From Modestobacter sp. L9-4 (GTDB lineage Bacteria > Actinomycetota > Actinomycetes > Mycobacteriales > Geodermatophilaceae), in NCBI RefSeq assembly GCF_019112525.1, contig NZ_CP077800.1:806001-870000 (forward strand): a stretch of 64,000 bases of DNA, given 5' to 3'. Position 1 is the stretch's first letter. Each line of letters opens with the position of its first letter. The translations under genes were made by a program, and so were the position numbers. Below the pieces are notes generated by a model. It ran no database searches. It had not been told where the DNA came from and was given only the letters and a program-made list of their open reading frames with translations. This document shows, piece by piece, positions 12,676 to 64,000 of this stretch.

Positions 12676-12694
12676 CTCAGGCTCCCTTCCGGAC

Positions 12695-12714
12695 GCGGGG
12701 CACCGGCGCCCCGC
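12695..12714 (-). other. Intercistronic hairpin in the Ter operon
   Basis: GCGGGGC (12695-12701) pairs with GCCCCGC (12708-12714) around a 6-base loop, between the second TerD gene and the TerA-like gene. There is no U tract, so it is more likely attenuation or mRNA processing than full termination. Confidence 0.45.
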
Positions 12715-12732
12715 GCGTGCAGCCAACCACGC

Positions 12733-13311: not shown

Positions 13312-13353
13312 GTCGAGCTCCTTCTCTCTGTCCGTGTGGCACCCGCGGGGGGG

Positions 13354-13379
13354 GCCGGCGGCGGGTGACCGCCGCCGGC
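13354..13379 (-). terminator. Strong hairpin between the two TerD genes
   Basis: An 11-bp perfect stem, GCCGGCGGCGG (13354-13364) with CCGCCGCCGGC (13369-13379), closes a GTGA tetraloop 7 bases after the first TerD stop. It could reduce read-through into the rest of the operon. Confidence 0.6.
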
Positions 13380-13386
13380 TGCGACG

Positions 13387-13962: not shown

Positions 13963-14028
13963 CTGGATCTCCTTCGATCGGTTGCGCGGGCCGCTCCGGC
14001 ACCTGCCGACCCGGCGTTCTCGGCTCCG

Positions 14029-14034
14029 ATACTA
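14029..14034 (-). promoter_or_regulatory. Possible -10 box for the Ter operon
   Basis: On the minus strand this reads TAGTAT, a good TANNNT -10 element, about 65 bases before the first TerD start. No convincing -35 hexamer is seen at the right spacing. Confidence 0.35.
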
Positions 14035-14127
14035 GGCAGGACGGCTGTGCAGGAGCTGGTCGTCGCCCACTCGGGTGGACGACCGGGAGCTCCCCTCCTC
14101 CCCCTCCCGCGGGGCTACCGTGCGGTG

Positions 14128-15024
14128 GTGTCCGCACCCGTCGCCACCGACCACCCGCAGATCGTCGCCTGGCTGGGGCTGGGCGCCATGGGCACCCCGA
14201 TGGCCGCGCGCCTGCGGGCAGCCGGGCACGACGTCCGGGCGTACGACCCCCACGGCGGTCCGGAGGTCGGCGCCGGGACCCCGGCGCTCGCCGCGGCCGG
14301 CTGCGACGTGCTGATGGTGATGGTCGCGACGCCGGAGCAGGCCACGCAGGCGCTGTTCGGCGAGCACGGCGCCGCCGCGTCCCTGCGGCCGGGCAGCCGG
14401 GTGGTCCTGCTCGGCACCCTCGGGCCCGACTGGGTGCGTGGGCTGCAGCTGCCCGACGGGGTCCGCGTCGTGGACGCGCCGGTCAGCGGCGGCGTCACGC
14501 GTGCGGCCACCGGCGAGCTGCTGGTCATGGCCGCCGGTGCACGGGCGGAGGACACCGCGCTGCTGGAGGTCTTCGGCGAGGTGGTCCCCGTCGGGGACGA
14601 GCCCGGGCAGGGCCAGGCGATGAAGCTGGTCAACCAGGTGCTGTGCGGGGTGCACATCGCCGCCGCCGCCGAGGCGCTGGCACTGGCGGAGCGACTGGGC
14701 ATCGACCCGCGGCTGGCCTGGGACACGGTCCGCCAGGGCGCGGCGGCCTCCTTCATGCTCGAGGACCGGGGCGCCCGCATGGTCGCCGGGCCGGACGGCA
14801 CCGTGCGCAGCGCCGTGCAGCTGTTCGTCAAGGACCTGCACCTGGTGCTGGACGAGGCCGACCGGACCGGCCTGCAGACGCCGGTCGCGGCTGCGGCGGC
14901 GCGGCTGTTCGCCGACGCGGGCGACGCCGGCCTGCTGCGGGCCGACGACGCCCGGCTGTTCGACCACGTGCGCTCCGGGTCGGGTGGCGACCGGCAGCCG
15001 CCACCCGACCCGCAGGACGACTAG
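14128..15024 (+). CDS. 3-hydroxyisobutyrate-type NAD(P)-dependent dehydrogenase
   Basis: About 298 residues from GTG 14128, chosen because the Rossmann motif WLGLGAMGTPMAARL follows soon after and upstream residues are low-quality. The domain order is the GLGAMG NAD(P) loop, the substrate-binding DAPVSGGVTRAATGELLVM segment and a helical domain containing GQAMKLVNQVL with the catalytic Lys, then FVKDLHLVLDEA. Members oxidise beta-hydroxy acids such as 3-hydroxyisobutyrate, tartronate semialdehyde or four-carbon sugar acids. Next to a DUF1537 kinase and an aldolase, an L-threonate-dehydrogenase-like role is the best guess. It is transcribed toward the rest of the locus and its stop codon overlaps that of the epimerase. 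Confidence 0.85.
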   Translation: MSAPVATDHPQIVAWLGLGAMGTPMAARLRAAGHDVRAYDPHGGPEVGAGTPALAAAGCDVLMVMVATPEQATQALFGEHGAAASLRPGSRVVLLGTLGPDWVRGLQLPDGVRVVDAPVSGGVTRAATGELLVMAAGARAEDTALLEVFGEVVPVGDEPGQGQAMKLVNQVLCGVHIAAAAEALALAERLGIDPRLAWDTVRQGAAASFMLEDRGARMVAGPDGTVRSAVQLFVKDLHLVLDEADRTGLQTPVAAAAARLFADAGDAGLLRADDARLFDHVRSGSGGDRQPPPDPQDD

Positions 15025-49559: not shown

Positions 49560-50705
49560 TCAGGCGTTGAGCCGACCAGCGACAGCCGCCGCCACAGCCG
49601 CAGCGAGCGGGGGCGGAACAGCATTACCGATCTGGCGGGCGATGGCAGCCTTGGATCCGCACCACAGGTGACGCTCATCGAAGCCCTGAACGACAGCCGC
49701 CTCGGCATGCGTGAGGGCACGGTTCACTTGAAGGCCACCGTTTTCCCACTGCGGGTGCAGGAAGCGCCCCTTCTCCGGTCGGAAGAACTCGGTGCGGATG
49801 GTCACCGACGGTTGATCCCAGCGCAGACGACCCAAGACGTCTCCCGCGCCGCTTGAGTGGCGCCGCCAGCACGGGTATTGGAGCTCCTCGGGGAGCTGGA
49901 AGCGACCTTGCCCAGGCGCGATGTGTGCATAACGGATCTCCGAGAGCACGTCATAGTGCCGCGTGACGTGCAGGTCGCGAAGCTTGAACGGTCCCGCGAC
50001 CGGCACGCCTTGAAAGTCGATGGCGCTCTCGGGAAGCCAGACGTCGCGAACGTCGGGCTCCAACACCACAGGCCCCTCCAAGAAGGCTTGGCGCAGGCTG
50101 CGCCAAGCTTCGAGGCCGGCGCCTGGATTCTTACCGTGCGTCATCACGGGATCTACCACCGGACCGATTCGCGAACCGACCACGACCGTCCGGACACGCT
50201 TCTGAGGTGCCCCGAAATCTGCGGCGTTGAGCCGGAACACCTGTGAACGGAAGTCAGACAGCTCCCCGCCTTCATCAGCTGCTCGTCGCAGGAGCTGGAA
50301 CTCGGGCGTGCGAGCAAACCGGTCGACGTTCTCGAACACGAACATCTGCGCGCCAGACTCGCGTACGACCCTGACGAACTCGCGCCACAGCTGATTTCGC
50401 ACGTCGGCAGGGTCCCGCCGGCCGAGCGCCGAGAAGCCTTGACAGGGAGGCCCGCCGACAACGACGTCCGCCGGTGGCACGTCGACGAAGGCCGCTATGT
50501 CGCCGGCGAAGGTGTGCTGGCCCGCGGTGTCGAAGTTCACCGCATAAGTCGCCGCAGCCGACACATCCCGCTCCACGGCGGCAGCCACGCGGAAGTGCCC
50601 CTCATCCAGGAACCCCCGCGTGAGCCCCCCGCAGCCGGCGAAGAGATCTAGCATCTGAAAACTCGGCGCCAGCACCGACCCCACGCTAGTCAGTCGTGAA
50701 CTCAT
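49560..50705 (-). CDS. DNA (cytosine-5-)-methyltransferase
   Basis: A protein of about 381 residues from ATG 50705; the frame stays open further upstream. The C5-methylase motifs are in order: I (LDLFAGCGGLTRGF), IV with the catalytic Cys (VVVGGPPCQGFSALG), VI (FVFENVDRF), VIII (FGAPQKRVRTVVVGSR), then a target-recognition region of about 130 residues and motifs IX-X (PSVTIRTEFF ... CGSKAAIARQIGNAVPPP). It transfers a methyl group from SAM to C5 of cytosine; the target site is not readable. The start lies 20 bases inside the vsr gene. It is a clear paralogue of the methyltransferase at 62707. Confidence 0.93.
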   Translation of the reverse strand: MSSRLTSVGSVLAPSFQMLDLFAGCGGLTRGFLDEGHFRVAAAVERDVSAAATYAVNFDTAGQHTFAGDIAAFVDVPPADVVVGGPPCQGFSALGRRDPADVRNQLWREFVRVVRESGAQMFVFENVDRFARTPEFQLLRRAADEGGELSDFRSQVFRLNAADFGAPQKRVRTVVVGSRIGPVVDPVMTHGKNPGAGLEAWRSLRQAFLEGPVVLEPDVRDVWLPESAIDFQGVPVAGPFKLRDLHVTRHYDVLSEIRYAHIAPGQGRFQLPEELQYPCWRRHSSGAGDVLGRLRWDQPSVTIRTEFFRPEKGRFLHPQWENGGLQVNRALTHAEAAVVQGFDERHLWCGSKAAIARQIGNAVPPPLAAAVAAAVAGRLNA

Positions 50706-51174
50706 CACCAGCGCCGACCCGGCAGGTGGCGCGTGATGAAGTTCCACGCACCCCTTGAAGCGCCTCGAGGACCCGACCGAGGGCCACGTCGGGGGGCTCG
50801 TGCTCCCAGATCTCCAGGACAGTCCATCCCAGGTCCTCGAGGTGCCGCCGCGTCTGCGCGTCGCGAACCTTGTTCTGATCGATCTTCTGCTTCCACCAAA
50901 CGGCGTTGGCTACCGGCCAAGTTCCGTGTTCCGGGCAGCCGTGCCAGAAGCAGCCGTGCACGTTGACGGCCACTCGGGACCGCGTGAAGGCGATGTCGAT
51001 CGTCCTCCGCCTGAGTCCCGGGACAGGCCAGGAGACGCGATAGCGCTTGCCCCGACCATGCAGCATCCGTCTGAGCGCCATCTCGGGTGCGGTGTCCGCA
51101 CGTGCCTGACGACTCATCCGCGCTGCCACGGCTGGGGAGCTCGGCACCGGCGGTTGCAGAGATTTTCCAGTCAC
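50686..51174 (-). CDS. vsr: Very short patch repair endonuclease (Vsr)
   Basis: A 162-residue protein from GTG 51174. It has the family features DTAPEMALRRMLHGRGKRYRV, catalytic Asp60 in TIDIAFTRSRVAV, HGCFWHGCPEHG with zinc and active-site residues at 73-83, and WWKQKIDQNKVRDAQT. Vsr nicks DNA 5' of the T in T:G mismatches that arise when 5-methylcytosine deaminates. It is encoded ahead of and overlapping the C5 methyltransferase gene, the normal partner. No clear ribosome site is seen before the GTG. Confidence 0.93.
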   Translation of the reverse strand: MTGKSLQPPVPSSPAVAARMSRQARADTAPEMALRRMLHGRGKRYRVSWPVPGLRRRTIDIAFTRSRVAVNVHGCFWHGCPEHGTWPVANAVWWKQKIDQNKVRDAQTRRHLEDLGWTVLEIWEHEPPDVALGRVLEALQGVRGTSSRATCRVGAGDEFTTD

Positions 51175-51179
51175 CGTCC

Positions 51180-51187
51180 GACATCGT
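51180..51187. promoter_or_regulatory. GACATCGT half-site next to vsr start
   Basis: GACATCGT lies 5 bases before the vsr start (minus strand ACGATGTC). The same word forms one arm of the dyad at 51363. It could be a shared operator in the divergent promoter region. Confidence 0.3.
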
Positions 51188-51362
51188 AAGCAGGTGGAAC
51201 TTCTGCGGCCTCCTGCTCCCGCGGATCATGATCCACTGAACTGGAGCCGCTCACCTGCAATCCTGGCGCATCGGGGAAACGCCGACCGTGCCGCCGCCCG
51301 GAGTCGACCGCCGTCGGACAGAGCTGCGTCGACGCCTGTGCCGCAATCGCAAGCAGCTATCT

Positions 51363-51377
51363 GACATCAACGATGTC
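51363..51377. promoter_or_regulatory. Dyad in the divergent vsr/helicase promoter region
   Basis: GACATC-AAC-GATGTC, 6-bp perfect arms, 53 bases before the start of the large ATPase-helicase gene. The whole gap (51175-51430) holds no gene and must contain promoters for both directions. Confidence 0.35.
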
Positions 51378-51430
51378 CTCATTCGCACGCCTTCCACCGT
51401 GTCGTCAGACCTACCGGGATACTGCATCTC

Positions 51431-54400
51431 GTGACGGACCCCACACGGTGGAAGCAGCCCGACGCCTCACTGAACAGGTGGCTGACGACTCACCGCGAGA
51501 ACGCCCTGCAGTCGTACCGCGCCAACCCTCTCCTGGTCTCGGAGCACGGACGACAAGAAGACAGCTTCCGGACAGGGGGCTACGCGAATCGGCAGGTCCT
51601 CGAACTGATCCAAAATGCTGCGGACGCTCAGCAACGCAGCGGCCGACGCGGTCGGATCGAGCTTCGTCTGACTTCCGACGCGCTCTACTGCGCGAACGAC
51701 GGGGAACCCTTCACACAACGTGGACTCGAGGCAGTGTGTCAGGCGTACATGAGCGACAAGCGCGCCGACGAGATCGGCCGTTTCGGACTCGGCTTCAAGT
51801 CGGTCCTGGCGGTGACCGACAGACCCGCTGTGTTTAGCACGTCGGTGAGCTTTGGCTTCGACGCGGGCACGTCCGCGCGGGCCCTGCGATCAATCCAGCC
51901 CAACGCCTCCCTCTATCCGGTGTTACGCCTGCCCGTGCCGCTGGACGTCCAAGCCGAGTTCGCCGCCGATGAGGTGTTGGCTGAGCTCGCCGAGTGGGCA
52001 GTCACGGTGATCCGACTTCCTCTCGCGTCAATTCCTGACCGACTGTTCACGGATCTGTACAAGTTCCCTCACGAGTTCCTGCTCTTCGCACCGAGTGTCG
52101 AACGGCTCCGCATCGAGGTCAGTGGCCAGCACGGCAGCGCCTCGATCGAACATGCCTGCGTCGCACACGACGACAACCGCATGACACTCGTCAGTGAGGA
52201 CGGGCAAGAAGCCGACTGGCTCGTCTGGCATCGACAACATCACCCGAGCGAGCTCGCGCTCGCTGAGTTGGGGGAAGCTCTGCGGCGAGACGAGGTGCGG
52301 GTCTCATACGCAGTACCACTCGACGACGCATCCTCACTGGGCCGGTTCTGGGCCTACTTCCCGCTGCAGGACGTGACATCCGCCCGAGGCATCCACAACG
52401 CGCCCTGGCGTATCAACGACGACCGCACGAACTTGCTGGACGGACTGTTCAACGAGGAACTGCTCGATGTCCTCGCAGACATGATCGTGGCTGGGCTGTC
52501 CTCACTCACCGATCCCGACGACCCCGCCCGCCACTTCGACTACCTGCCCGCTCGTGGTCGCGAAGCGCCGAACGGGGCCGACAAGTACCTCGCGGACGTG
52601 GTGCCACCCAGGGCGCGAGTGACGGCATGCATCCCGGACGCGATCGGGACCCTGCAACGACCGAACAGACTCTTCTACCCGGCCGCCGACCTGCGCCTCG
52701 ACCTCCAGACCTTCGGCCTGTGGGATGCAGCGCCCCAGCGCCCTACCGATGCACCGCACTGGACCTGCTACAAGACGCCGACTCGGCGAGCTCGGCTGAG
52801 GAGTCTCATCCGGGTGGACGACTCGAAGACGTCCGATCGAGAGCTCGGTGCCGCCGAGTGGGTCGAACGCATTGCCGGCGATGGTCGAGACGACAAGGTC
52901 GACGCGGCCCTGAAGACGGTGTTCTCCGTCAGCGATGACGCCGTCAGGCGCGACATGTTGACGGCCAGGATCCTCCCGGACACGACGGGAGTTCTCCACC
53001 GACTGAACGCGACCAGCACCCTCTATCTGCGGGGGAACCTGCTCAGCTCGGCGGCCGGCCTCGCGCTTCTGCGTCCTTCTCTCCTGGCGCTCGGTAAGGT
53101 CGCCGAACGGCTGGAGGCCATCGGCTTCAAGGACGTTGAGCCCCAGGAGGAACTGCGGAAGCTGGCAACGGCGGCGGCCCGGAAGTGGTCGGCCACCGAA
53201 TGGACCGCCTTCTGGGGGTTGGTGGAGGAGGTCACGGTCACCGAGGCCGAGAAGATCCTCGTGGACCACGTCGCGGCAGGCGCGCCCCTGAAGGTCCGCT
53301 CGGCAGGTGGTCGCTGGCAGGACGTGGGAACCGTCGTCGTCCCAGGCCTGGTGGAGCCGATGGACTCATCCCTTGCCCTCGATGTCGAGTTCCACGAGTT
53401 CCACCTCAGCCTGCTGAAGTCTCTCGGCACCGCGGTTCGGCCCGTCGTCTCCCGGGCGAACTCGCAGGACATGACATTGCTCGAGTACCTGCGGATTCAG
53501 CGTTCTGCAGCGCTGGACGGTCTTCCGCCGCGCGGGAGGCCCGAGGCATCGGCACTCCACTTCCAAGAACCCGCCGCACTCGGGCCCCTGCACGTCCTCC
53601 GGCGCTTCGGCGATACGGGGGACGTCGCTTCACAGGTCGTGTGGACCACGGAGCTGCTCGAGGCGCAGGCGCCGAGCCGCTGGCACTTGGGCCACATTAA
53701 CCCCCGGGTGTTTGAGCCTCGGTCGGTTCTCGCGCCGCATCTGTGGGCAGCCGAGAGGTACGGGCTCCTCGAGTCGTCGTGGGGACCCCGACCGCCTGCC
53801 GGATGCCTGAGTCATGAGCTCACCCGATACGCGTCTCTGCTGCCGGTTGCCACGCGCTCCTCCTCCTCCCAGGTGCGGACCATCAGCTCTTTGAACGAGG
53901 TGCCACTGGACCTGTGGCGCGAGTTCCTCGGCAGGACGAGCCAGAGCGATGACGCGTGGTTGTTGGGCGACCTACTGGTCGAGGCGTGCCGCCGACTGCC
54001 GACTGAGGAGTCGCCGGTCGCTCTTCCCCACGTTGGCGGGGACCTCAGACTCGTACCCACGCGTGAGCTTCTGCTCGCCAGGACGGAGGAGGAGCAGCGC
54101 GCCCTCTCAGCGCGCGGCCTGCCCCATGTGGGCATGAGGAGCGATGAGGCGGAGACCCTGCTGACGGGGCGGTGGGGGTGCACCGTCGCATCCACGGTCC
54201 TGCGTGTCGAGATCGCAACGGAGACGCCTGGTGAGCCGATCGTCCTGCTCGACCGATTCCGCGGCCTTCGTGCGCTCGCAGGCGGTCAGCTGGACGGTGT
54301 GGAGCTGATCGAGTGCTCCGACTTGGCTCGGCAGGTGACAGGGCCCGACGGTCTGCACTCCCAGGCTGCGGACTTCGCCCGGCGTGGGAAGACGGTGTTC

Positions 54401-56083
54401 TACGTCAGCACCGTGCATGACGACGAGCTGTTGGGACGACTGTCGGACGAGTTCGGCCTTGATTTGACCGCCACGGTCATCCAGCGCGTCCTCGATGATG
54501 CTCAGGACGAGCAGGTCAACGGTCGGATGGCGGCCTGTCGGGCCGCCATCACACCTTCCCGCAAGCTCCTCGCACTCCTCCCGGGGCCGGTCCTGGAGTC
54601 CCTCCTTCCGTCGGGCCTGCTGGTCACGGTGCGGAGGATCGGGGAGGACACTGGCCCTGAGCAGGTCGCAGAACTGTTGCTGCACGTACACGGCTACAAC
54701 GTCCTCTCCGAGTTGCGTCATGTCCTGGAGTCGGCGGGCTATCCCGTGCCCGACCGATGGGCCGGGTCGTCGCCGGCGGTCGCCTTCGTCCGTCGTCTCG
54801 GCTTTCCGAGCGAGTACGCCGGCATCCGGGGCGCCTCCTTGGATCCCGACCTCACGGTCTTCGGTCCGCCCCGACTCGACCCCCTCCACGGATATCAGGC
54901 CGAGCTGGCCGACCAGATCCGGGACCTCGTGAGCGCAACTGCCTCACCGGATCGCGCGATGCTCTTCCTGCCCACAGGCGCAGGGAAGACCCGCGTCACC
55001 GTCGAAGCGTTGACCAAGGCGTTCATCGAGGACGGCTTTCAGGGACCGCTCCTGTGGATTGCGCAGACGGAGGAACTCTGTGAGCAAGCGGTCCAAACCT
55101 GGAGTCTCGTGTGGCGCGAGTTCGGTGATCGGCCGCTACGCGTGTGCAGGCTCTGGAGCACCAACGAGGTGGCCAGGAGTGATGAGGCACTGACCGTCGT
55201 GGTCGCGACCGACGCGAAGTTGGACAAGCTGAACCGCGATGAGTACGACTGGCTTCGGCAATCGGCGGCGGTTGTTATCGATGAGGCGCACACGGCCACA
55301 GGGGCAGGGATCACTGAGACCCTGGCGTGGCTCGGTATCGAGCAGGGGAAGACCGCCCGCCCGCTGCTCGGCCTGACGGCCACCCCCTTCAAGGGGACCG
55401 GTACGGAGGCGAACAAGCGCCTGGCAGTTCGCTTCGGGAAACGCCAACTGGACGTTCTGGGCGACGACCCGTATGGCGAGTTGCAGCGCCTCGGCGTTCT
55501 CGCCGAGATCGAACACGAGGTTCTCGATGGGGTCTCGATCACCCTCAAGTCTGGTGAAGCGAAGCAGGTCGAGACCTTCGGAGCGATCCCTCAGGCGGTC
55601 CTGGAGCGTGTGGGGCAGGACGAAGAACGGACGCGACGTCTGCTCGACCACATCACGGGACTGCCCGATGACTGGCCGGTTCTCGTGTTCACAGCGTCCG
55701 TCCTCTCATCGCAGACGCTCGCAGCACTGCTGCGGGTACGGGGGATCGAAGCAGCTTCGGTGAGCGGTACGACGCGCATGTACGACCGCCGTCGGAGCAT
55801 CGACGCATTCCGGAAGGGGGACATCAAGGTCCTGACCAACTGCAACGTCCTGACTCAGGGCTTCGACGCCCCGGCTGTGCGCGCCCTGTACATCGCCAGG
55901 CCGACGTTCAGCCCTAATGCCTACATTCAGATGGTCGGCCGCGGGCTCCGCGGCCCGGCCAATGGCGGCAAGGAGAAGTGTCGGATTGTCAACGTTGCCG
56001 ACACCTTCGACCAGTTCGGTGACAAGCTGGCGTACAAGGAGTTCGACTACCTCTGGCGCAAGCAGGGTGGGAGGCTCCGATGA
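51431..56083 (+). CDS. Sacsin/HSP90-type ATPase fused to DEAH SF2 helicase
   Basis: A 1550-residue protein; GTG 51431, no ribosome site seen. The N-terminus is a GHKL ATPase of the sacsin type: SEHGRQEDSFRTGGYANRQV, N-box LELIQNAADA (residues 57-66), G1 ANDGEPF (88-94), G2 GRFGLGFKSV (116-125). The middle 1000 residues match nothing I know. The C-terminus is an SF2 helicase: LPTGAGKT (about 1179-1186), DEAH (about 1284), GLTATPFKG (about 1315) and QMVGRGLRG (about 1499). GHKL-helicase fusions occur in defence islands. The stop overlaps the next start (ATGA). I infer a sensor and motor subunit. Confidence 0.88.
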   Translation: MTDPTRWKQPDASLNRWLTTHRENALQSYRANPLLVSEHGRQEDSFRTGGYANRQVLELIQNAADAQQRSGRRGRIELRLTSDALYCANDGEPFTQRGLEAVCQAYMSDKRADEIGRFGLGFKSVLAVTDRPAVFSTSVSFGFDAGTSARALRSIQPNASLYPVLRLPVPLDVQAEFAADEVLAELAEWAVTVIRLPLASIPDRLFTDLYKFPHEFLLFAPSVERLRIEVSGQHGSASIEHACVAHDDNRMTLVSEDGQEADWLVWHRQHHPSELALAELGEALRRDEVRVSYAVPLDDASSLGRFWAYFPLQDVTSARGIHNAPWRINDDRTNLLDGLFNEELLDVLADMIVAGLSSLTDPDDPARHFDYLPARGREAPNGADKYLADVVPPRARVTACIPDAIGTLQRPNRLFYPAADLRLDLQTFGLWDAAPQRPTDAPHWTCYKTPTRRARLRSLIRVDDSKTSDRELGAAEWVERIAGDGRDDKVDAALKTVFSVSDDAVRRDMLTARILPDTTGVLHRLNATSTLYLRGNLLSSAAGLALLRPSLLALGKVAERLEAIGFKDVEPQEELRKLATAAARKWSATEWTAFWGLVEEVTVTEAEKILVDHVAAGAPLKVRSAGGRWQDVGTVVVPGLVEPMDSSLALDVEFHEFHLSLLKSLGTAVRPVVSRANSQDMTLLEYLRIQRSAALDGLPPRGRPEASALHFQEPAALGPLHVLRRFGDTGDVASQVVWTTELLEAQAPSRWHLGHINPRVFEPRSVLAPHLWAAERYGLLESSWGPRPPAGCLSHELTRYASLLPVATRSSSSQVRTISSLNEVPLDLWREFLGRTSQSDDAWLLGDLLVEACRRLPTEESPVALPHVGGDLRLVPTRELLLARTEEEQRALSARGLPHVGMRSDEAETLLTGRWGCTVASTVLRVEIATETPGEPIVLLDRFRGLRALAGGQLDGVELIECSDLARQVTGPDGLHSQAADFARRGKTVFYVSTVHDDELLGRLSDEFGLDLTATVIQRVLDDAQDEQVNGRMAACRAAITPSRKLLALLPGPVLESLLPSGLLVTVRRIGEDTGPEQVAELLLHVHGYNVLSELRHVLESAGYPVPDRWAGSSPAVAFVRRLGFPSEYAGIRGASLDPDLTVFGPPRLDPLHGYQAELADQIRDLVSATASPDRAMLFLPTGAGKTRVTVEALTKAFIEDGFQGPLLWIAQTEELCEQAVQTWSLVWREFGDRPLRVCRLWSTNEVARSDEALTVVVATDAKLDKLNRDEYDWLRQSAAVVIDEAHTATGAGITETLAWLGIEQGKTARPLLGLTATPFKGTGTEANKRLAVRFGKRQLDVLGDDPYGELQRLGVLAEIEHEVLDGVSITLKSGEAKQVETFGAIPQAVLERVGQDEERTRRLLDHITGLPDDWPVLVFTASVLSSQTLAALLRVRGIEAASVSGTTRMYDRRRSIDAFRKGDIKVLTNCNVLTQGFDAPAVRALYIARPTFSPNAYIQMVGRGLRGPANGGKEKCRIVNVADTFDQFGDKLAYKEFDYLWRKQGGRLR

Positions 56084-57663
56084 AACTGATTCCCTCACTG
56101 GCGCAATTGGGACAGATCGAGAGTCGCGGCGAGTTCCGCGTCGCTGAGCTGATCGCCCAGATGGTCCCGGGCCGACCGGCCACGTGCTTGTACTCCGTCC
56201 ACCTCCCGCGGCACGAGTACAAGCGGATGTCGGAGATCGACTTCCTCATCGTCTACGACGACATTGTGCTGGTCATTGAGGTGAAGGGTGGCCGACTGAG
56301 TCGCCGCGCGGGTGCCTGGACCTTCACGGACAGGTACGGCGAGACATCCGAGAAGCGCGAGGGTCCGTTCGAACAAGCCCGAACCGCCATGCACGCTCTT
56401 CGGGACGGCCTGCGGACGAGACTTCCGGCGCTGGACGTGGCCTTCGGCTATCTCGTCGTAACGCCGGACCAGGAACTGGGGCGCGACCTGGAGTGGGATC
56501 CGCAGGTCCTGGCAGGTCCGCGTGCGATGTCGGTCAGCGGGCTGGAACGTGCGCTTGAGGCAGCTCGTTCTTACTGGCTCGACAAGGAGTCGCGGCGTCC
56601 GGTCGGCAACGCACACCGTGACCTTCTGTCTGTGTTGCGTCCTGACTTCGATCGGGTGCCGTCGATGGCGAGCCGAATTGCCAGCCTCGAGAACGAGTAC
56701 GTGAGATTCGCGGATCGACAGTACGAATTGCTTCTCGTGGCCGAGCGCAATCGCCGGATCGTCTGCCTCGGGGGGGCAGGGTCGGGTAAGACGCTGCTCG
56801 CCGTCGAGACGGCGCGACGAGCGGCCGTCGGCGGCGATCGCGTTCTGCTGACGTGCCGCTCGAAGGCGCTGGCCAGCGTCCTCCAGCATGCCCTGGCAGG
56901 ATCGAGCGTCACCTGCCTGCCCTTCGAGAGCATCTCCGATACAGAACCCGTCGACGTTCTCATCGTCGATGAGGCCCAGGACTTGATGGACCTCCAGTCC
57001 TATGCGCAGCTGGACGCGCTCGTTGTTGGAGGATGGGAGAGGGGCCGGTGGCGCCTGTTCTGCGACGCCAACAACCAGGCAAACGTCGACGGGACCTTCG
57101 ATCGATCAGTCTTCGATGAGCTGGCCGCCACGGCGACGGTCGTCGAACTCCCGTTCAACTGTCGGAACACCGCGACGATCGTGCACCAGACCCAGATGAT
57201 CACCGGTGCTGACATCGGTGTCGCACGGGCTGGTCAAGGGCCCCCTGTCGAGTACAAACAATGCCCTGACGATGACGCCACCGCCCGCCTCCTCGACGCT
57301 CATCTCAAGCATCTCCGCCAAGCCGAGGTGGACGAAGGGGACATCGTGGTGGTCACGGTTCGCGACGCCATTGCGGACAGCGCAGCCCAGGAGTCGAAGG
57401 CTTTTCGCACCGGTCGACTCCTACCGGTCCTCGATCCTGCTGCGGAGACAGCCGGCAAGATCCGACTGACGACCGCCACCCAGATCAAGGGCCTCGAGGC
57501 AGCTCACGTGTGTGTCGTCGACGTGGAGGACGTCGAGGACCCTCACGCGCGAGCGCGGCTCTACGTGGCCATGACCCGGGCTCGGATCAGCCTGTGGATC
57601 GGCCTGAGTCCCACTGCATGGAGCCAGATCGCAAGCGGATCGCAGACGGGAGCACAGACATGA
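56080..57663 (+). CDS. NERD-domain nuclease fused to UvrD-like SF1 helicase
   Basis: A 527-residue protein. Residues 15-150 form a NERD (PD-(D/E)XK-like) domain: EIDFLIVYDDIVLVIEVKGG holds Asp54 and Glu67-x-Lys69, the expected metal and catalytic residues, and a later FGYLVVTP segment fits. An SF1 helicase core follows: Walker A CLGGAGSGKTLLA (residues 231-238), motif II LIVDEAQD (297-301), LPFNCRNT, TATQIKGLEAAHV and YVAMTRAR. The NERD domain has cleavage potential and the helicase would move on ssDNA. The ATG overlaps the stop of the preceding gene and its own TGA overlaps the next ATG. Confidence 0.9.
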   Translation: MKLIPSLAQLGQIESRGEFRVAELIAQMVPGRPATCLYSVHLPRHEYKRMSEIDFLIVYDDIVLVIEVKGGRLSRRAGAWTFTDRYGETSEKREGPFEQARTAMHALRDGLRTRLPALDVAFGYLVVTPDQELGRDLEWDPQVLAGPRAMSVSGLERALEAARSYWLDKESRRPVGNAHRDLLSVLRPDFDRVPSMASRIASLENEYVRFADRQYELLLVAERNRRIVCLGGAGSGKTLLAVETARRAAVGGDRVLLTCRSKALASVLQHALAGSSVTCLPFESISDTEPVDVLIVDEAQDLMDLQSYAQLDALVVGGWERGRWRLFCDANNQANVDGTFDRSVFDELAATATVVELPFNCRNTATIVHQTQMITGADIGVARAGQGPPVEYKQCPDDDATARLLDAHLKHLRQAEVDEGDIVVVTVRDAIADSAAQESKAFRTGRLLPVLDPAAETAGKIRLTTATQIKGLEAAHVCVVDVEDVEDPHARARLYVAMTRARISLWIGLSPTAWSQIASGSQTGAQT

Positions 57664-60600
57664 CACTCAAGGATGAACTCGCAGGGGTACGCGAGGACCT
57701 CGTTCACTATCTCCGCAGGCAGTACCTGGGGCCCGCCAACGGTGAGTTGGAAGTACTTCAGGATCGGCCGGACCGGATCTATCTGGTCGGCACCCTCTTC
57801 CCCCGTGGACAGAGTGCGACTCGGCTCGACGGCGACGAGCTGGGCGAGGTCGCACATGACGACGAGCTCGACGAACCGGTTGAACTCGCCAACGCGTGGC
57901 AACCCGCCTCAGCCGCCATCTCGTTCTTCCACGACGGCGACAGCCTCTCGTGCACCCTGACGGCCGGCGTCTATGCCAGTGAAGGCGCCGATCACAGTTG
58001 GGCGCGGGAACCACTGGTCCATGACGACATCACCGTCACGTCGGACGACACAGAGCCCCACGACGTTTTTGATGGTCGCGCACGCTTGGTCGTCGTCTGG
58101 CGCCCTCTCGATGGCAAGTGGCTGGTCACCGCGGCCCTCGAGAACAAAGCAGTACACGATGATGCCGAATCGCAGGTCTCGATCGAGGACTGCCTCTTCC
58201 AGGTCCACATGTCCTGCACGGTGCGCAACGGGGTCGCTCTCCCCTACCCCACGAGCACCGACCTGAGTGACGATCCCGAAGACCAAGAACTGCGGCTCCT
58301 GTACCGAGACCGTCGTTCCTACGGCACCGGCCACGGGTGCTCCGTGAGCTGGCGACTTGCCGAGGACGGCACCGTGCGCACAGTCACGACCGACATGCTC
58401 CCGACCACCGTTGTCCCGGCAGTGCGAGCGGCTGGGCTGGACCTACCTGTACTGCGCCTGGAACGGTTGGCCGACGAAGCGCTTCCCGCGGAGATCCTCC
58501 TGGGGGAACTCCGCGACTTCGTGCACGTCTACGGCACATGGGTGCAGGGGCAGGCGGAGGACGCCGAAGGGCTCCAGACATCCGACCGGCCTGCTGCCGA
58601 GCGGCTCGTCGGTCGTATGCGGTCGGCGCTGCGCCGAATGCTGAGCGCAGTCGACCTGCTCGGCGATGATGCTGACTCGCTGTTGGCCTTTCGCCTGGCC
58701 AATGCCGCGATGCGAGAGCAGATGCTCCAGAGCAGGCACGTCCGAGACAACGTGGGCCGGCGTGGCCAAACGCTGGCCGCGCGCGCGGCTGCTGCACCAG
58801 AGCCTCGGTGGCACCCGTTCCAGCTGGGCTTTCAGCTGCTCTCACTGGCATCGACTGCCCAGGCGGAGCACGTCGATCGCCAGACGGTCGACCTGCTGTG
58901 GTTCCCGACCGGCGGTGGCAAGACCGAGGCGTACCTCGGGCTCGCTGCATTCGAGATGATCCGCAGGAGGCTGACTCGAGGCGTCAAGGGCGGGGGTACC
59001 GCCGTCCTCACCCGCTACACCCTGCGGTTGCTCACCACACAGCAGTTCCAGCGGTCCGCAACCCTCATCTGCTCGCTGGAGCGGTTACGCCATCGCCACC
59101 CGGCGTTGCTCGACAGTTCCCCGTTCAGCATCGGCATGTGGGTCGGCGGAGACACGACGCCGAACAACTTGGCGACAGCCCACAAGCGCGTCCTGGAGCT
59201 CCGGCGAACGCAGACGCCGGAGAGTCCCTTCCAGATCCAGTCATGCCCCTGGTGCGGCACCCCGCTGCTGCCTCGCCGCCGAGTCAATGACGCAGGCGCA
59301 TATGGCGTCAGGTCGACCCAGCACAGCTTCGAGCTGTTCTGCACCCATGATCAGTGCCCATTCCATCCAGCGCTCCCAGTCAGCGTCGTGGACGAACAGA
59401 TCTTCGCGGAGCCACCGACGCTCCTGGTGGCGACCGTCGACAAGTTCGCTCGGCTGCCATGGGTGTCGAGCGCCGGCTCCCTCTTCGGCCAGCACAACGT
59501 GTCGTACGACCCGCCCGGCCTCGTGATCCAGGATGAGTTGCATCTCTTGTCCGGCCCCCTGGGCACCACCGTTGCGTTGTACGAGTCAGCGGTACAGAGC
59601 CTCATCGGCTGGGGCGGTCAGAGGCCCAAGATCGTAGCGTCGACAGCGACCATCCGAGCTGCCGATCACCAGATCCGCAGCCTCTACGGAGCACCCGTCA
59701 ATCTCTTCCCTCCGAGTGGGCTGACGGCCGACAACAGCTTCTTCGCAGAACCCGATCCTGCAGCACCTGGGCGGCTCTACCTAGGGCTGATGCCGCAGGC
59801 CCACAGCCCCTCGTTCGCCACAGTGCTGGCCTGTGTGGCCCTACTGCAGGGACCGTTGGCGCTCGGTGTCTCAGCCAGATCGCTGGATGCCTACTGGACG
59901 CTCGTCGCCTACCACAACAGCCTGCGCGAGCTCGGTCGAACCGTGACGATCGCGCGAGACGACGTCGAGAGCATGCTGCAGGCGCGTGACCGCGGTGACA
60001 TGGTCGCCCGGAGCCTGCGCCGCGACGGGGTGATCGAGTTGACGAGCAACGTCTCCGCCAGCCAGTTGCCCCGCATCCTCGAGCGGCTCGAACACGGGGT
60101 GGAGCGCGATGACACGGTGGACGTCGTCGCGACCACCAACATGCTCAGTGTCGGGATCGACATCAGTCGGCTCGGGCTGATGCTCATGAACGGGCAACCG
60201 AAGACCACATCCGAGTACATCCAGGCCACGAGTCGTGTCGGCCGTTCTGACGTCCCCGGGTTGGTGGTGACGCTGCTACGTGCCAGCAAGCCGCGTGATC
60301 GTTCACACTACGAGGGCTTTCTGGCCTACCACCAGGCTCTCTACCGACATGTCGAACCGACCAGCGTCACCCCGTGGTCCCTGGCTTCCCGGCGGCGGTC
60401 GCTCCATGCCGCTCTGACCTTGCTGGTGAGGCACGGGGTAGGCCTCCGGCAGAACGATCAGGCGGGCGACTTCCGAGCTGAGGATCCCGGCGTGCAGCGA
60501 GCCGTGGCACAGCTCAACTCATGGGCCCAGCGATCGGATCCCGATGAAGCGCCAGGCGTGGCTGCCGACCTACAGCGGCTCGTCGGCGAATGGGACGACC

Positions 60601-60776
60601 GAGCGCGCGCAGCCGAAGCGTTGGGCATGCGTCTCAAGTACGAGTCGTCGAGCAAGGACGGCCCAGCGTTGCTCTGTGACTTCGGGGAGAAGAAGGAAGG
60701 CTGGGAGACCATGCACTCAATGAGATCAGTCGACCGACAGGTCCGCGTCCTCGCCATCGGGGAGACCCTGCGATGA
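57660..60776 (+). CDS. drmA: DrmA-like DISARM helicase
   Basis: A 1038-residue protein from ATG 57660, overlapping the preceding stop. The N-terminal 400 residues are an unassigned domain. The helicase has Walker A WFPTGGGKTEAYLGLA (about 413-425), a zinc-binding insert CPWCG ... FCTHDQC, DELH in place of DEAH (about 625-628), STATIR and the motif VI-like YIQATSRVGR. GGGKTEAYLG, DELHLLSGPLG and TSRVGR are hallmarks of the DISARM protein DrmA. DISARM DrmA works with DrmB (DUF1998), and that gene follows with an ATGA overlap. The symbol is given by similarity in motifs and context, not by a search. Confidence 0.82.
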   Translation: MTLKDELAGVREDLVHYLRRQYLGPANGELEVLQDRPDRIYLVGTLFPRGQSATRLDGDELGEVAHDDELDEPVELANAWQPASAAISFFHDGDSLSCTLTAGVYASEGADHSWAREPLVHDDITVTSDDTEPHDVFDGRARLVVVWRPLDGKWLVTAALENKAVHDDAESQVSIEDCLFQVHMSCTVRNGVALPYPTSTDLSDDPEDQELRLLYRDRRSYGTGHGCSVSWRLAEDGTVRTVTTDMLPTTVVPAVRAAGLDLPVLRLERLADEALPAEILLGELRDFVHVYGTWVQGQAEDAEGLQTSDRPAAERLVGRMRSALRRMLSAVDLLGDDADSLLAFRLANAAMREQMLQSRHVRDNVGRRGQTLAARAAAAPEPRWHPFQLGFQLLSLASTAQAEHVDRQTVDLLWFPTGGGKTEAYLGLAAFEMIRRRLTRGVKGGGTAVLTRYTLRLLTTQQFQRSATLICSLERLRHRHPALLDSSPFSIGMWVGGDTTPNNLATAHKRVLELRRTQTPESPFQIQSCPWCGTPLLPRRRVNDAGAYGVRSTQHSFELFCTHDQCPFHPALPVSVVDEQIFAEPPTLLVATVDKFARLPWVSSAGSLFGQHNVSYDPPGLVIQDELHLLSGPLGTTVALYESAVQSLIGWGGQRPKIVASTATIRAADHQIRSLYGAPVNLFPPSGLTADNSFFAEPDPAAPGRLYLGLMPQAHSPSFATVLACVALLQGPLALGVSARSLDAYWTLVAYHNSLRELGRTVTIARDDVESMLQARDRGDMVARSLRRDGVIELTSNVSASQLPRILERLEHGVERDDTVDVVATTNMLSVGIDISRLGLMLMNGQPKTTSEYIQATSRVGRSDVPGLVVTLLRASKPRDRSHYEGFLAYHQALYRHVEPTSVTPWSLASRRRSLHAALTLLVRHGVGLRQNDQAGDFRAEDPGVQRAVAQLNSWAQRSDPDEAPGVAADLQRLVGEWDDRARAAEALGMRLKYESSSKDGPALLCDFGEKKEGWETMHSMRSVDRQVRVLAIGETLR

Positions 60777-62578
60777 GGATGATGCGTTTGAGTCAGACGA
60801 TCTCGCCGTTCGGGGTCGGAAGCGTCCTGGATGTACTGGGTGAGTCGTTGATGGGCGCGGACATCAGCGAATGGCCGTATGAGAAGACTGAACGAGTCGA
60901 GTCCGCGCGCCTCGAACAGGCACTGGGCGTACGCGAGTTGCGATCCGCACCCAGCGTTCCGTCGTATCCGTCCACCAACACCCCCGGCATCTACTACCAG
61001 CGGTTCCCCCGTTGGCTCTTCTGTCAGGACTGCCGCCTGATGCGGTTCGTGTTCGGGAACGAGGAGACCGGCGAGGCACCGACGTGCAAGGAGTGCCGAG
61101 GGAAGCTGGTGCCGATGCGTTTCATCGCGGTCTGCACGACGCGCGGTCATGCAATGGACGTGCCGTGGGACAGGTGGGCTCACTCGTCACACGAGAACGC
61201 CGACCAGGACAGGTGCAGATCGCCGCGTCTCCTGTTCGAGACCAGCCGCGGCGGCTCCGAAGGGCTGTCCAGCCTCGTCGTTCGCTGCACGACTTGTCGG
61301 GCGAGCCGGCACCTCGGGGACCTGCCGAGCCGAGAGTCGTTGAAGCGCATCGGCGTCCGGTGCTCGGGAAAGCAACCTTGGCAGCGGAGTACGGCAAATC
61401 CCTGCGACGAGCGCATTGAGGTGTTGCAGCGCGGCGCCACGAACGTGACGCTGAGTGAGACGACTACGGCGCTCGACATTCCCGAACCGACGAGTCAGTC
61501 GCGAGACCTGGATGCAGAGATCCGACAGCACCGGAACTTCGAGGACGTGAGCACCGCCCCTGGCGGCCCGCGGGCGACGATGCTCATGGAGTTGATAGCC
61601 GAAGACCTGAAGGTGTCGGAGGACCTGGTTCGCCGTGTGGTCGCCTCGAGCGCGGAGCAGAACGACGGGTTGGAAACTGCTCGCACCGGACTCCTGACAG
61701 CGGAGTGGCAAGCGTTCATGCAGGCCGTCGATCATCCGGGCGAGCCCACGGGGACGCCTGACTTCGTCGTGTCGGCCACCGATCTTGCGACCGAACTGGA
61801 CGGCGAGGTCTACAGGTCGCTGGAGGCACGCGTCAGGAACGTCGTGCTCGTTCATCGACTTCGAGAAGTCCGGGTCCTCCACGGCTTCCGCCGTTACGAT
61901 CTTGAAGCGAGTCTCGTGGACGTCGACCTGGGTCCCCGAGGTCGCGAACGGTGGTTGCCTGCCGTGGAGTCCTTCGGGGAGGGCGTCTTCATGACGCTCG
62001 ACCCGGAGAGGCTCGCGGATTGGGAGGAGGACGAGGACGTCCTCAAGCGTGTCAGGGTCATCGAAGGTCGACGCCGAGACAGTCTCATCGGCTCTCGGTT
62101 CGCTGAGGCAACACCGCGGCTGGTCCTCCTCCACACCCTGGCCCATCTGCTGATGAGGCGACTGGCCTTCACATCGGGTTACTCGGCAGCGTCGATCCGG
62201 GAACGCGTGTATGCAGGTACTGGATCCGCGCAAGAGGCGGGCGTCCTTCTCTACACCGCAGCTGGGGATGCCGAGGGCACGCTCGGGGGCCTCGTCAGAC
62301 AAGGCGAGCAGCCTCGCCTGGCCAACACCCTGCTCGGATCACTGGAAGACGCTGCTTGGTGTTCCGCCGACCCGGTCTGTCGCGAGAGTCGCGGACAGGG
62401 CCTCGGCAGTCTCAACCTCGCAGGCTGCCACGGTTGTTGTCTAGTGGCCGAGACGTCGTGCGAGCGCTCGAACGTCCTGCTCGACCGGGTCCTGGTCATC
62501 GGCGATCAACGGACCCCTGGCTTTTTCGCGCCGACCCTCACGGCCATGAGAGACGCCGCTGCAGCAGCAGTGAAGTGA
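60773..62578 (+). CDS. drmB: DUF1998 (DrmB-like) protein
   Basis: A 601-residue protein starting with an ATGA overlap on drmA. The N-terminal part begins SQTISPFGVGSVLDVLGES, and a zinc cluster follows: CQDCRLM and CKECRGK, then CTTCRASRHLGDLPS. The C-terminal DUF1998 domain has LLHTLAHLLMRRLAFTSGYS, GVLLYTAAGDAEGTLGGLV, and Cys-rich CSADPVC, LAGCHGCCLVAETSCE. DrmB is the DISARM partner of DrmA; the pair forms a DNA-loading complex. The Cys clusters look complete. The protein is somewhat shorter than some DrmB proteins I know. It is the last gene of the coupled run. Confidence 0.85.
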   Translation: MRMMRLSQTISPFGVGSVLDVLGESLMGADISEWPYEKTERVESARLEQALGVRELRSAPSVPSYPSTNTPGIYYQRFPRWLFCQDCRLMRFVFGNEETGEAPTCKECRGKLVPMRFIAVCTTRGHAMDVPWDRWAHSSHENADQDRCRSPRLLFETSRGGSEGLSSLVVRCTTCRASRHLGDLPSRESLKRIGVRCSGKQPWQRSTANPCDERIEVLQRGATNVTLSETTTALDIPEPTSQSRDLDAEIRQHRNFEDVSTAPGGPRATMLMELIAEDLKVSEDLVRRVVASSAEQNDGLETARTGLLTAEWQAFMQAVDHPGEPTGTPDFVVSATDLATELDGEVYRSLEARVRNVVLVHRLREVRVLHGFRRYDLEASLVDVDLGPRGRERWLPAVESFGEGVFMTLDPERLADWEEDEDVLKRVRVIEGRRRDSLIGSRFAEATPRLVLLHTLAHLLMRRLAFTSGYSAASIRERVYAGTGSAQEAGVLLYTAAGDAEGTLGGLVRQGEQPRLANTLLGSLEDAAWCSADPVCRESRGQGLGSLNLAGCHGCCLVAETSCERSNVLLDRVLVIGDQRTPGFFAPTLTAMRDAAAAAVK

Positions 62579-62617
62579 CTGGACCCGACTCAGGAAGCAC
62601 GTCGAATCAGGGGACTT

Positions 62618-62662
62618 AGGACACACTCGGTGTTGCGGCTACCGACACGCCGAGTGTGTCCT
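62618..62662 (+). terminator. Hairpin after the DISARM-like operon
   Basis: AGGACACACTCGG (62618-62630) and CCGAGTGTGTCCT (62650-62662) form a perfect 13-bp stem, 40 bases after the DrmB stop. There is no U tract. It may terminate the operon or mark a processing site before the methyltransferase gene. Confidence 0.6.
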
Positions 62663-62673
62663 GGGCCCGACCC

Positions 62674-62688
62674 AGGACTGTCAGTCCT
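62674..62688. promoter_or_regulatory. Palindrome upstream of the methyltransferase gene
   Basis: AGGACTG-T-CAGTCCT, two 7-bp arms around one base, ends 18 bases before ATG 62707. It overlaps the likely promoter. It is a candidate operator for autoregulation or for a control protein. Confidence 0.4.
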
Positions 62689-62706
62689 GCCCCCTAGTCT
62701 GACGGC

Positions 62707-63798
62707 ATGCCGGTAGCCAGCGTGATCGATCTCTTCGCCGGGTGCGGCGGCATGAGCCAGGGTTTCCACCAGGAGGGCTTCGAGTCGACCCTCGCGGTCG
62801 AGTGGAACCTGCACGCTGCCGCCACTTATGCCGCGAATTTCGGCGAGGAGCACACCTACTGGGGCGACATCGAAGCTCTACCGACCTCAGACATCCCCGA
62901 GGCAGACCTGGTCATCGGGGGCCCCCCCTGCCAAGGCTTCTCCAATTTGGGCAGTCGTGACATCGAGGACCCGCGGAACAAGCTCTGGAAGCAGTACCTC
63001 CGGGTCGTCAAGGCCGCCAACCCCAAGATCTTCATTCTCGAGAACGTCGAGCGTTTTCGACGTAGCAGCGAGTTCGAGTTGTTGCTGTCCGAGGTGGACG
63101 GAGGCCTGCTCTCTGGGTACAAGTTGCACCACGGCGTTCTGCTTGCAGCTGACTACGGGGTAGCGCAGCGCAGGCCACGCACCATCGTCATCGGTAGTCG
63201 TATAGGCGATGTGCCCCTACCCCCGCCGACTCACGCCAAGCAGCCCATGCTCGGCCTTGAGATGTGGGAGACCGTTCGCTCACGCATTGAGGGCTACCCC
63301 GCCGAGCCGCTCACGACCGCGCTGCCCGCGAGCACCGCCAACTTCTTCGGCCAGAAGGTGCCGGGCGTCTTCAAGTCTGAGGACCTCCATCTCGGACGGC
63401 AGCCGCAGCCTCGGAGTCTGCTCCGTTACGACGCCATTCCGCCGGGTGGCGGCCGATTCGACCTTCCCGATGACCTCCTGCCGGCTTGCTGGGCGAACAA
63501 GCCCACCGGGACGACAGATGTCATGGGTCGGATGAAGTGGGACGCCCCCTCCTTGACCATTCGCACCGAGTTCTTCAAGCCCGAGAAGGGGCAGTACCTA
63601 CATCCCCAGTGGGAGCGGGAGGACTCCACGGCTCGCGTCAACCGTCCGATCACGCATCTCGAAGCCGCTCGCCTCCAGGACTTCCCGGAGAGCTTCGTCT
63701 GGTGCGGATCGAAGATCGAGATCGCCCGCCAGATCGGCAATGCGGTGCCGGTTGGTCTCGCTGCCGCTGTGGCCAGGCACGTCAAGCAGTACCTGTGA
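62707..63798 (+). CDS. DNA (cytosine-5-)-methyltransferase, DISARM-associated
   Basis: A 363-residue protein with motif I VIDLFAGCGGMSQGF, motif IV VIGGPPCQGFSNLG, motif VI FILENVERF, motif VIII YGVAQRRPRTIVIGSR and motifs IX-X RQIGNAVPVGL. The target region lies between about residues 175 and 285. The end of the protein and the stretch TIRTEFFKPEKGQYLHPQW closely match the methyltransferase at 49560, so they are paralogues and may read similar targets. In class 2 DISARM a 5mC methyltransferase (DrmMII) marks self DNA; that role is likely here. No ribosome site is seen, and translation may be leaderless. The stop lies 15 bases inside the HNH gene on the other strand. Confidence 0.93.
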   Translation: MPVASVIDLFAGCGGMSQGFHQEGFESTLAVEWNLHAAATYAANFGEEHTYWGDIEALPTSDIPEADLVIGGPPCQGFSNLGSRDIEDPRNKLWKQYLRVVKAANPKIFILENVERFRRSSEFELLLSEVDGGLLSGYKLHHGVLLAADYGVAQRRPRTIVIGSRIGDVPLPPPTHAKQPMLGLEMWETVRSRIEGYPAEPLTTALPASTANFFGQKVPGVFKSEDLHLGRQPQPRSLLRYDAIPPGGGRFDLPDDLLPACWANKPTGTTDVMGRMKWDAPSLTIRTEFFKPEKGQYLHPQWEREDSTARVNRPITHLEAARLQDFPESFVWCGSKIEIARQIGNAVPVGLAAAVARHVKQYL

Positions 63799-64000
63799 AT
63801 CCCGGAAGCCATCCCTGATCGCCGGAACGGGCGATCCGCCGTTGACGGTGCGAGTCGTTGGCCGCCTGGCGGTGACACGTCCGACAGTAGGTCGCCAGCT
63901 GTGCACGGTCATTGAGTTGCTCGACGGGCAGTCGGTCCAATGCTTCCCCGACAGCCTCGAGGTGGTGCAGCTCAAGATGGAAGCCTGCATCGCCTTCCCG
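63782..64000 (-). CDS. HNH endonuclease, 5' end outside window
   Basis: The minus-strand frame is open from the window edge to TGA at 63782-63784 and gives 72 residues. It reads GFHLELHHLEAVGEALDRLP, then LATYCRTCHRQAANDSHRQR: an HH pair followed by C-x-x-C-H, as in the C-terminal half of HNH nucleases. The last 17 bases overlap the 3' end of the methyltransferase gene. Placed against a 5mC methyltransferase, a restriction or modification-dependent nuclease is likely, but the start is not visible. Confidence 0.7.
   Translation of the reverse strand, partial: REGDAGFHLELHHLEAVGEALDRLPVEQLNDRAQLATYCRTCHRQAANDSHRQRRIARSGDQGWLPGFTGTA

Follow-up and report, generated by a model that had tools for sequence, protein, structure and literature searches.

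A conserved DISARM-like gene set with a sacsin-type ATPase–helicase in Modestobacter sp. L9-4

Introduction

Class 1 DISARM systems comprise drmD, drmMI, drmA, drmB and drmC, and class 2 systems carry drmE and drmMII. Here, we describe a related operon in a window of 64,000 nucleotides of the Modestobacter sp. L9-4 genome (4.22 Mb, one contig; positions 806,001–870,000 of NZ_CP077800.1, assembly GCF_019112525.1). Its four large genes encode, in this order, TmtHel (a name coined in the present analysis), a NERD-SF1 protein, DrmA and DrmB (Table 1). As in class 1 DISARM, homologues of DrmA and DrmB are present in the same order and a DNA methyltransferase gene is nearby. Unlike class 1, the operon has no DrmC beside DrmB, DrmD and DrmMI are not among the matches listed for its proteins, it contains TmtHel and a superfamily 1 (SF1) helicase, and its DrmA falls outside the canonical clade. 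With class 2 it shares a C5 cytosine methyltransferase found together with DrmAB, but DrmE and DrmC are not among the listed matches of the window proteins, and in PADLOC the two C5 enzymes fit DruM2 and type II models better than those of DrmMII.

Passages of PMC9142583 describe how DrmAB of Serratia binds single-stranded DNA and DNA with 5′ overhangs, not double-stranded DNA, and how DrmC fails to co-purify with it and appears non-essential. ARMADA, BRIGADE, TALON and Druantia likewise consist of several genes around a YprA-family helicase, and passages of the 2025 survey that treats them (PMC12458937) add that ARMADA II also has a UvrD-family helicase, that TALON also has a NERD nuclease, that only in DISARM are the helicase and the DUF1998 protein consistently split into two genes, and that numerous DISARM-like classes are still uncharacterized. 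The window operon has this split too. No BrxHII-like or PglX-like gene (as defined in passages of PMC12458937) is a main PADLOC match among the window operon proteins, the BrxHI/HII models reaching 25.5 bits on the helicase part of TmtHel. The terms HATPase, GHKL and Tiamat are absent from the main text of that survey, its supplementary tables aside. With the same tables set aside, our literature search found no name for the gene set and no paper combining DrmA with sacsin, DISARM with sacsin, or drmA and drmB with HATPase, although DISARM, drmA and Tiamat come up together in two papers; no already named system with the same gene order turned up in the model libraries scanned either. The kind of system is anticipated in the literature; the gene set, its versions and the link to a GHKL ATPase appear to be undescribed in the literature searched.

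A conserved four-gene operon

The window had been read earlier without database searches as holding a DISARM-like defence island with an unusual gene set. The genes named in that sequence-only reading, namely drmA, drmB, a fusion of a sacsin-type ATPase to a superfamily 2 (SF2) helicase, a NERD/UvrD fusion, two 5-methylcytosine (5mC) methyltransferases and vsr, were all recovered with Pfam, NCBIfam and PADLOC models, and its judgement that TmtHel and NERD-SF1 are not DISARM parts held in every model set scanned.

When TmtHel was the only query, a pattern-based search found 37 loci in 84,980 species genomes, and 34 of them have DrmA and DrmB downstream in the same orientation. The exceptions are a short contig with a partial TmtHel and no DrmAB in the 4.3 kb downstream (L050), a contig that stops 0.9 kb past TmtHel (L051), and a locus that has no DrmAB despite 10 kb of sequence (L057). 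The 34 loci, the window and three further loci from its phylum or order (L073, L076 and L089) make up a set of 38 TmtHel–DrmA loci, which we take to belong to Actinomycetota, Acidobacteriota (L034, L040) and Chloroflexota (L056). All three junctions between the four genes of the window are ATGA overlaps, in agreement with the earlier reading. Across the 38 loci, junctions fall within −20 to +30 bp in 32/35, 35/36, 37/38 and 2/2 measured cases; the script that measured them picks the start codon closest to the preceding stop, which biases it to short distances, failed in L056 (values in the hundreds of bases) and gave +2 in the window where ATGA is visible. Because DrmA–DrmB follow TmtHel in 34 of the 37 loci and the close junctions are conserved, TmtHel–NERD-SF1–DrmA–DrmB is one conserved unit, as had been argued from the tight coupling in the window alone.

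Co-occurrence was also counted in a sample of 396 genomes of the phylum, in which a DrmA-type gene was called above 200 bits (NF038325) and a full-length TmtHel above 1000 bits (the next score being 162). The former is present in 29 genomes and the latter in four, all of which are among the 29; the hypergeometric chance of such an overlap, computed by hand, is about 2e-5. The idea that DrmA/DrmB and the two upstream genes never occur together, which would have told against the sequence-only reading, is rejected. TmtHel and DrmA are adjacent in three of the four genomes. In G369, the remaining genome, UvrD-SF1–DrmA–DrmB is separated from TmtHel by about 27–29 kb of the same contig, one end of which is 2.5 kb from TmtHel (L075, L103). 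Looked at from DrmA, this sample has 30 DrmA loci, and TmtHel adjoins the gene in three of them (the window, L073 and L076).

Relation to DISARM

The best-scoring families for the window DrmA are NF038325 and PADLOC DrmA, although the NF038325 score lies under the curated cut-off. It matches the solved DrmA (7s9v_A) with 484 bits and YprA (6znp) with 29 bits, and the window DrmB matches the solved DrmB (7s9v_B) with 206 bits. Of the components that define DISARM, the DrmA helicase (with the reservation about its cut-off) and the DUF1998/MZB protein DrmB are both present. Motifs I and II are identical in all 38 TmtHel-linked DrmA copies; compared with canonical copies, those of the TmtHel+NERD group are about 16 residues shorter in the trigger-loop stretch.

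In a DrmA tree that kept all 79 rows (built by a quick method and rooted at the midpoint, with flags on long branches and no separate mark for class 2), the window copy groups with six other TmtHel+NERD copies (support 100) within a 21-row branch (support 100), which also includes four copies with no TmtHel in the stretch examined (L078–L081). The TmtHel+UvrD copies form a second branch (support 100) with one extra member, L075, and the 22 canonical copies a third, separate branch (support 99), outside which the window DrmA falls. The deep order of this tree is unsettled, and it does not distinguish one origin of the TmtHel link from two.

DrmC was counted where the NCBI DrmC_I model (NF038319) scored over its cut-off at most about 100 bp from DrmB, adjacency being judged by hand. 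In the canonical clade, which served as a positive control, DrmC adjoins DrmB in 20 of the 22 loci (the exceptions are in G134 and G354). NF038319, run on the genomes of the TmtHel loci, found DrmC next to DrmB in 0/38; four of these genomes (those of L029, L039, L042 and L046) have it elsewhere, outside the stretch examined. The model has no match anywhere in the window's own genome, which rules out a canonical DISARM with a distant DrmC. DrmC, DrmD and DrmE, none of which the earlier reading had seen, are absent from the PADLOC and NCBIfam matches listed for the seven window proteins (for the two methyltransferases, the best 25 of 59 and of 63), DrmD and DrmE not having been searched for genome-wide or in other loci. 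The DISARM core proposed in that reading therefore stands as far as DrmA and DrmB are concerned, but the system is DISARM-like rather than DISARM proper because DrmC is consistently absent beside DrmB and DrmA lies outside the canonical clade.

Architecture of TmtHel

TmtHel consists of an N-terminal GHKL ATPase domain, a long middle region and a C-terminal SF2 helicase. NCBIfam models place a sacsin ATPase domain at residues 54–134 (55–137 in a sequence profile) and SF2 helicases at residues 1155–1526, with RadD as the best match. In an alignment of the window protein and 25 relatives, the residues E58, N62, D65, G116, G119, G121, K123 and S124 are invariant. Helicase motif I (GKT) is kept in all 36 aligned full or long proteins, and motif II reads DE[AG]H in all 30 sequences displayed from that alignment. 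Strict motif patterns run on the 38 TmtHel proteins (N-box in 17, G2 box in 32, Walker A in 36, DE[AC]H in 31) were too narrow, and aligned residues were used instead.

An AlphaFold2 model of residues 1–1140 has a mean predicted local distance difference test (pLDDT) score of 86.8 and a predicted TM-score (pTM) of 0.52. Foldseek matches this model to the ATPases of sacsin, Hsp90, SMCHD1, MORC and type II topoisomerases, with target-normalised TM-scores of 0.45–0.46 for sacsin, 0.34–0.35 for SMCHD1 and 0.36–0.39 for MORC. Judged by predicted fold, the kinship of TmtHel with the sacsin/Hsp90/SMCHD1/MORC ATPases is moderate. Nothing was recognised in the middle region: the best 50 of 499 Foldseek rows at the E limit of 10, which give no model ranges, show nothing but GHKL-type ATPases.

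Tiamat (TmtA) also has a sacsin/Hsp90-type ATPase at its N-terminus. TmtHel differs from Tiamat in its C-terminal SF2 helicase and its place in a DrmAB operon. The PADLOC TmtA/Tiamat models reach residues 9–551 only, the best of them aligning residues 12–417 with model positions 7–415 of 1538 and the next covering model positions 12–577 of 1782. An assignment of TmtHel to TmtA was rejected, since the models align with its N-terminal part and not over the full length.

Several other TmtHel-like genes were seen. Locus L043 has a second TmtHel-like open reading frame (ORF; at least 962 residues, 11913–14800) after DrmB that reaches the locus end, and in L025 TmtHel is broken across two frames (9968–14655; ORFs of 1161 and 440 residues), which makes it a pseudogene or an assembly error. 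In L057 (8572–14593), a C5 methyltransferase gene and then TmtHel are present, and a type IIG enzyme is encoded farther downstream. About 64 kb downstream in the window's genome there is another ORF for a sacsin-type ATPase (at most 1215 residues; L104 7153–10800; G000 C1 ~932152–935799), and the other operon genes were not found in the 20-kb stretch around it.

Variation in the second gene

The four-gene set of the earlier reading recurs, but it is just one of three versions. Between TmtHel and DrmA, 15 of the 38 loci have NERD-SF1, 21 have a UvrD-type SF1 helicase and two have nothing. Four of the UvrD-version loci (L034, L040, L056 and L073) also have NERD-SF1 after DrmB. NERD residues E52, D54, E67, K69 and Q99 and the Walker A and B residues of the SF1 helicase are invariant in all 16 aligned sequences. 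The NERD + SF1 layout is that of Nhi and of reverse transcriptase (RT)-associated NERD-helicases (RTasNERD-Hel 75.7 bits, Nhi 27.3 bits); unlike these, the window protein is coupled to DrmAB and TmtHel, with no reverse transcriptase among the operon genes.

The two loci with no gene in this position carry a 1560-residue ORF upstream of TmtHel on the opposite strand (L031 2104–6789, L049 2123–6805). Its L031 copy is an Eco57I-type methyltransferase, and many canonical DISARM loci have weak relatives upstream of DrmA. Another arrangement, an ORF of 507–690 residues followed by NERD-SF1, DrmA and DrmB with no TmtHel in the stretch, occurs in L064 (6046–9296), L083 (5461–9233), L090 (3257–6522) and L093 (14414–17637), whose DrmAs form a branch of their own (support 98). 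The upstream ORFs of L064 and L093, the two scanned, have no Pfam or PADLOC match, and neither does an 898-residue ORF upstream of NERD–DrmA–DrmB in L077 (9050–11746).

Accessory genes and genomic setting

Table 1. Genes of the operon and its surroundings, with positions in the window
Gene or product	Position	Strand	Length (residues)	Supporting match or remark
DCM1, C5 cytosine DNA methyltransferase	49560–50747	−	395	PF00145, 149.9 bits
Vsr-type mismatch nicking endonuclease	50686–51174	−	162	PF03852, 48.9 bits (cut-off 27); TIGR00632, 94 bits, slightly below cut-off 97.85
TmtHel, GHKL (sacsin/Hsp90-type) ATPase, long middle region, C-terminal SF2 helicase	51431–56083	+	1550	NF047352 P_loop_sacsin, 82.7 bits (cut-off 50); ResIII; Helicase_C
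NERD-SF1, NERD nuclease domain and SF1 (UvrD-like) helicase	56080–57663	+	527	PF08378, 39.8 bits (cut-off 22.1); PF13538
DrmA-family YprA-type SF2 helicase	57660–60776	+	1038	NF038325, 878 bits, under curated cut-off 950
DrmB-family DUF1998/MZB zinc-binding partner	60773–62578	+	601	NF038324, 430.8 bits (cut-off 240)
DCM2, C5 cytosine DNA methyltransferase	62707–63798	+	363	PF00145, 204.5 bits
Tandem-wHTH/HNH gene (wHTH, winged helix-turn-helix), C-terminal part	63782–64000	−		Full gene to 64858, beyond the window end (L058 782–1858)

Accessory genes were counted within 12 kb of DrmA (less at stretch ends), with C5 methyltransferase matches accepted from 40 bits. On this count a C5 methyltransferase accompanies 29 of the 38 TmtHel loci vs 4 of the 22 canonical loci (18 vs 0 at 200 bits or more), vsr 25/38 vs 5/22, and the wHTH gene 18/38 vs 0/22, figures biased by queries taken from the window and other TmtHel loci and by canonical stretches of about 20 kb or less vs up to 25 kb; the E limit also concealed a weak methyltransferase in L029 that was seen in another comparison. 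Best methyltransferase identities among loci span 26–78%, a wide range that is expected if specificity is exchanged. DCM1 is 77–78% identical to the copies in L026, where it stands beside an MzaC gene, and L027. DCM2 is 60–71% identical to the methyltransferase of L021, L023, L024, L041 and L073; its start lies 128 bp past DrmB, uncoupled from the operon, and it is the probable cognate self-marking enzyme. Vsr is a repair enzyme that acts on T:G mismatches arising from deaminated 5mC.

The gene converging with DCM2 had been called an HNH nuclease. The converging gene is real, but neither Pfam nor PADLOC reports an HNH family in its product, the label resting on a CxxCH signature in the sequence that we presume to be an HNH motif, and the protein also has a tandem-wHTH part. 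The wHTH gene (~220 residues) exists as a separate gene upstream of TmtHel in 12 of the 21 UvrD-version loci and is fused to the HNH domain in the window, L021–L023 and L041, with a partly eroded HNH signature in L021–L023. A role for the HNH domain as the conserved nuclease was rejected: the histidine that ends CxxCH is present in the window and L041 and gone in L021–L023, and in L022 and L023 an arginine replaces the first of two histidines, while the wHTH part is conserved. A Foldseek search with the wHTH-HNH model had no match reaching E 0.001, its best E value being 5.9e-3. Since the tandem-wHTH part recurs in 18 of the 38 loci, the gene is probably an accessory of the system.

Measured in 2-kb steps, G+C is 70–77% up to 48 kb of the window, 69% at 48–50 kb and 64–66% past 50 kb; at third codon positions, G+C stays low until about position 8400 of L058, some 7 kb past the window end. 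Because of this drop relative to the left flank, the low-G+C region with the operon looks like an acquired island. An HD_4-domain protein (PF13328, 48541–49236) is encoded at its left border, and Mza-type genes follow the operon region. Scans for promoters and terminators gave signals no higher than in shuffled sequences.

Discussion

We consider it probable, with moderate confidence, that the operon represents a conserved multi-gene DISARM-like system with a gene set of its own, most plausibly directed against phages. Building on the genes, their order and coupling, the parallel divergence of TmtHel and DrmA, the conserved motifs and the absence of DrmC, all of them direct observations, one can picture how it might work. 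The 5mC methyltransferase would mark host DNA as self, and Vsr would mend the T:G mismatches left behind by deamination. By analogy with the Serratia proteins, a DrmA–DrmB helicase complex may engage unmarked or structurally abnormal phage DNA, such as single strands or 5′ overhangs. In TmtHel, the GHKL ATPase could serve as an ATP-closed clamp or gate while the SF2 motor loads or moves on DNA. In the NERD version, NERD-SF1 would replace DrmC, unwinding and cutting DNA; the middle slot of the sister version belongs to a UvrD-type SF1 helicase. The wHTH(-HNH) protein may be a DNA-binding accessory or a regulator. A more ambitious proposal, which we offer tentatively and think doubtful in its full form, is that the operon stands for a third major class of DISARM-like systems. 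Its GHKL clamp, MORC/SMCHD1-like and fused to a helicase motor, would close on unmarked DNA and pass it to DrmAB, with NERD-SF1 and UvrD-SF1 as interchangeable effectors; bacterial immunity would then include a clamp-gated helicase relay in which NERD replaces DrmC.

Several observations weigh against this picture. TmtHel occurs without DrmAB in L057 and, as a 1096-residue relative in the company of Mza-like genes, on plasmid p2MP. Of the 79 DrmA rows, 8 have NERD but no TmtHel in their vicinity. Distances between TmtHel proteins track those between DrmA proteins over the 38 loci (r 0.959, against at most 0.346 in 2000 Mantel permutations), but this correlation is inflated by shared ancestry and has no housekeeping control. 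The fold matches of TmtHel are moderate, with target TM-scores below 0.5, and its middle region has no recognised role. By the count used, 9 of the 38 loci have no C5 methyltransferase; 5mC marking may therefore not be universal. L031 and L049 lack the middle gene, and NERD is missing from the stretch examined in 17 of the 21 loci of the UvrD version, so it cannot be the family-wide nuclease, and the UvrD version must rely on another nuclease or work without one.

The methyltransferases are also at the centre of the alternative that the window holds two adjacent systems, a four-gene operon with no modification part of its own and ordinary type II restriction-modification cassettes made of DCM2 and the HNH gene (and of DCM1 and Vsr). 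The uncoupled position of DCM2, its convergence with the HNH gene, the differing families and positions of the methyltransferases between loci and the nine loci without one all fit this view. Against it, methyltransferase and vsr genes are more frequent at TmtHel loci than at canonical ones (29/38 vs 4/22 and 25/38 vs 5/22, though the window-derived queries favour the former), and what recurs of the HNH gene is its wHTH part, which stands alone in the UvrD version. We regard this arrangement as unlikely. A DNA repair or genome-maintenance operon, in which helicases of the YprA/MrfA, RadD-like and UvrD types would act with Vsr and the methyltransferase on methylation-induced damage and not on phages, seems more unlikely still. 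Vsr is a repair enzyme, the C-terminus of TmtHel is RadD-like and DrmA does match YprA, but weakly, at 29 bits vs 484 bits for the solved DrmA; a patchy distribution (4 of 396 genomes), the G+C of 64–66% vs 70–77% in the left flank and the Mza-type neighbours also speak against housekeeping repair.

That a DISARM remnant, DrmA–DrmB stripped of DrmC and the helper proteins, came by chance to lie in a defence island next to a NERD helicase and a Tiamat-like ATPase, each a separate single-gene system, strikes us as highly improbable. Defence genes are indeed clustered in this region, which continues with Mza-type genes, and PADLOC assigns TmtA to the TmtHel N-terminus and NERD-helicase families to the second gene. 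However, the gene order is constant with near-overlapping junctions over 38 loci, none of the 38 has DrmC next to DrmB while DrmA motifs I and II are intact, and the TmtA models cover just the first third of TmtHel. Best-segment TmtHel identities of 34–69% among DrmAB-bearing loci disfavour a single recent transfer as the cause of the synteny.

Taken as a conserved DISARM-like system, the operon ties Hsp90/MORC-type ATPases to DrmAB. It gives annotators a definable gene set, which current models scatter over DISARM, Tiamat and generic helicase families. With DrmC beside DrmB in none of the 38 loci and a NERD nuclease-helicase built into one version, the family is a natural test of what cuts.

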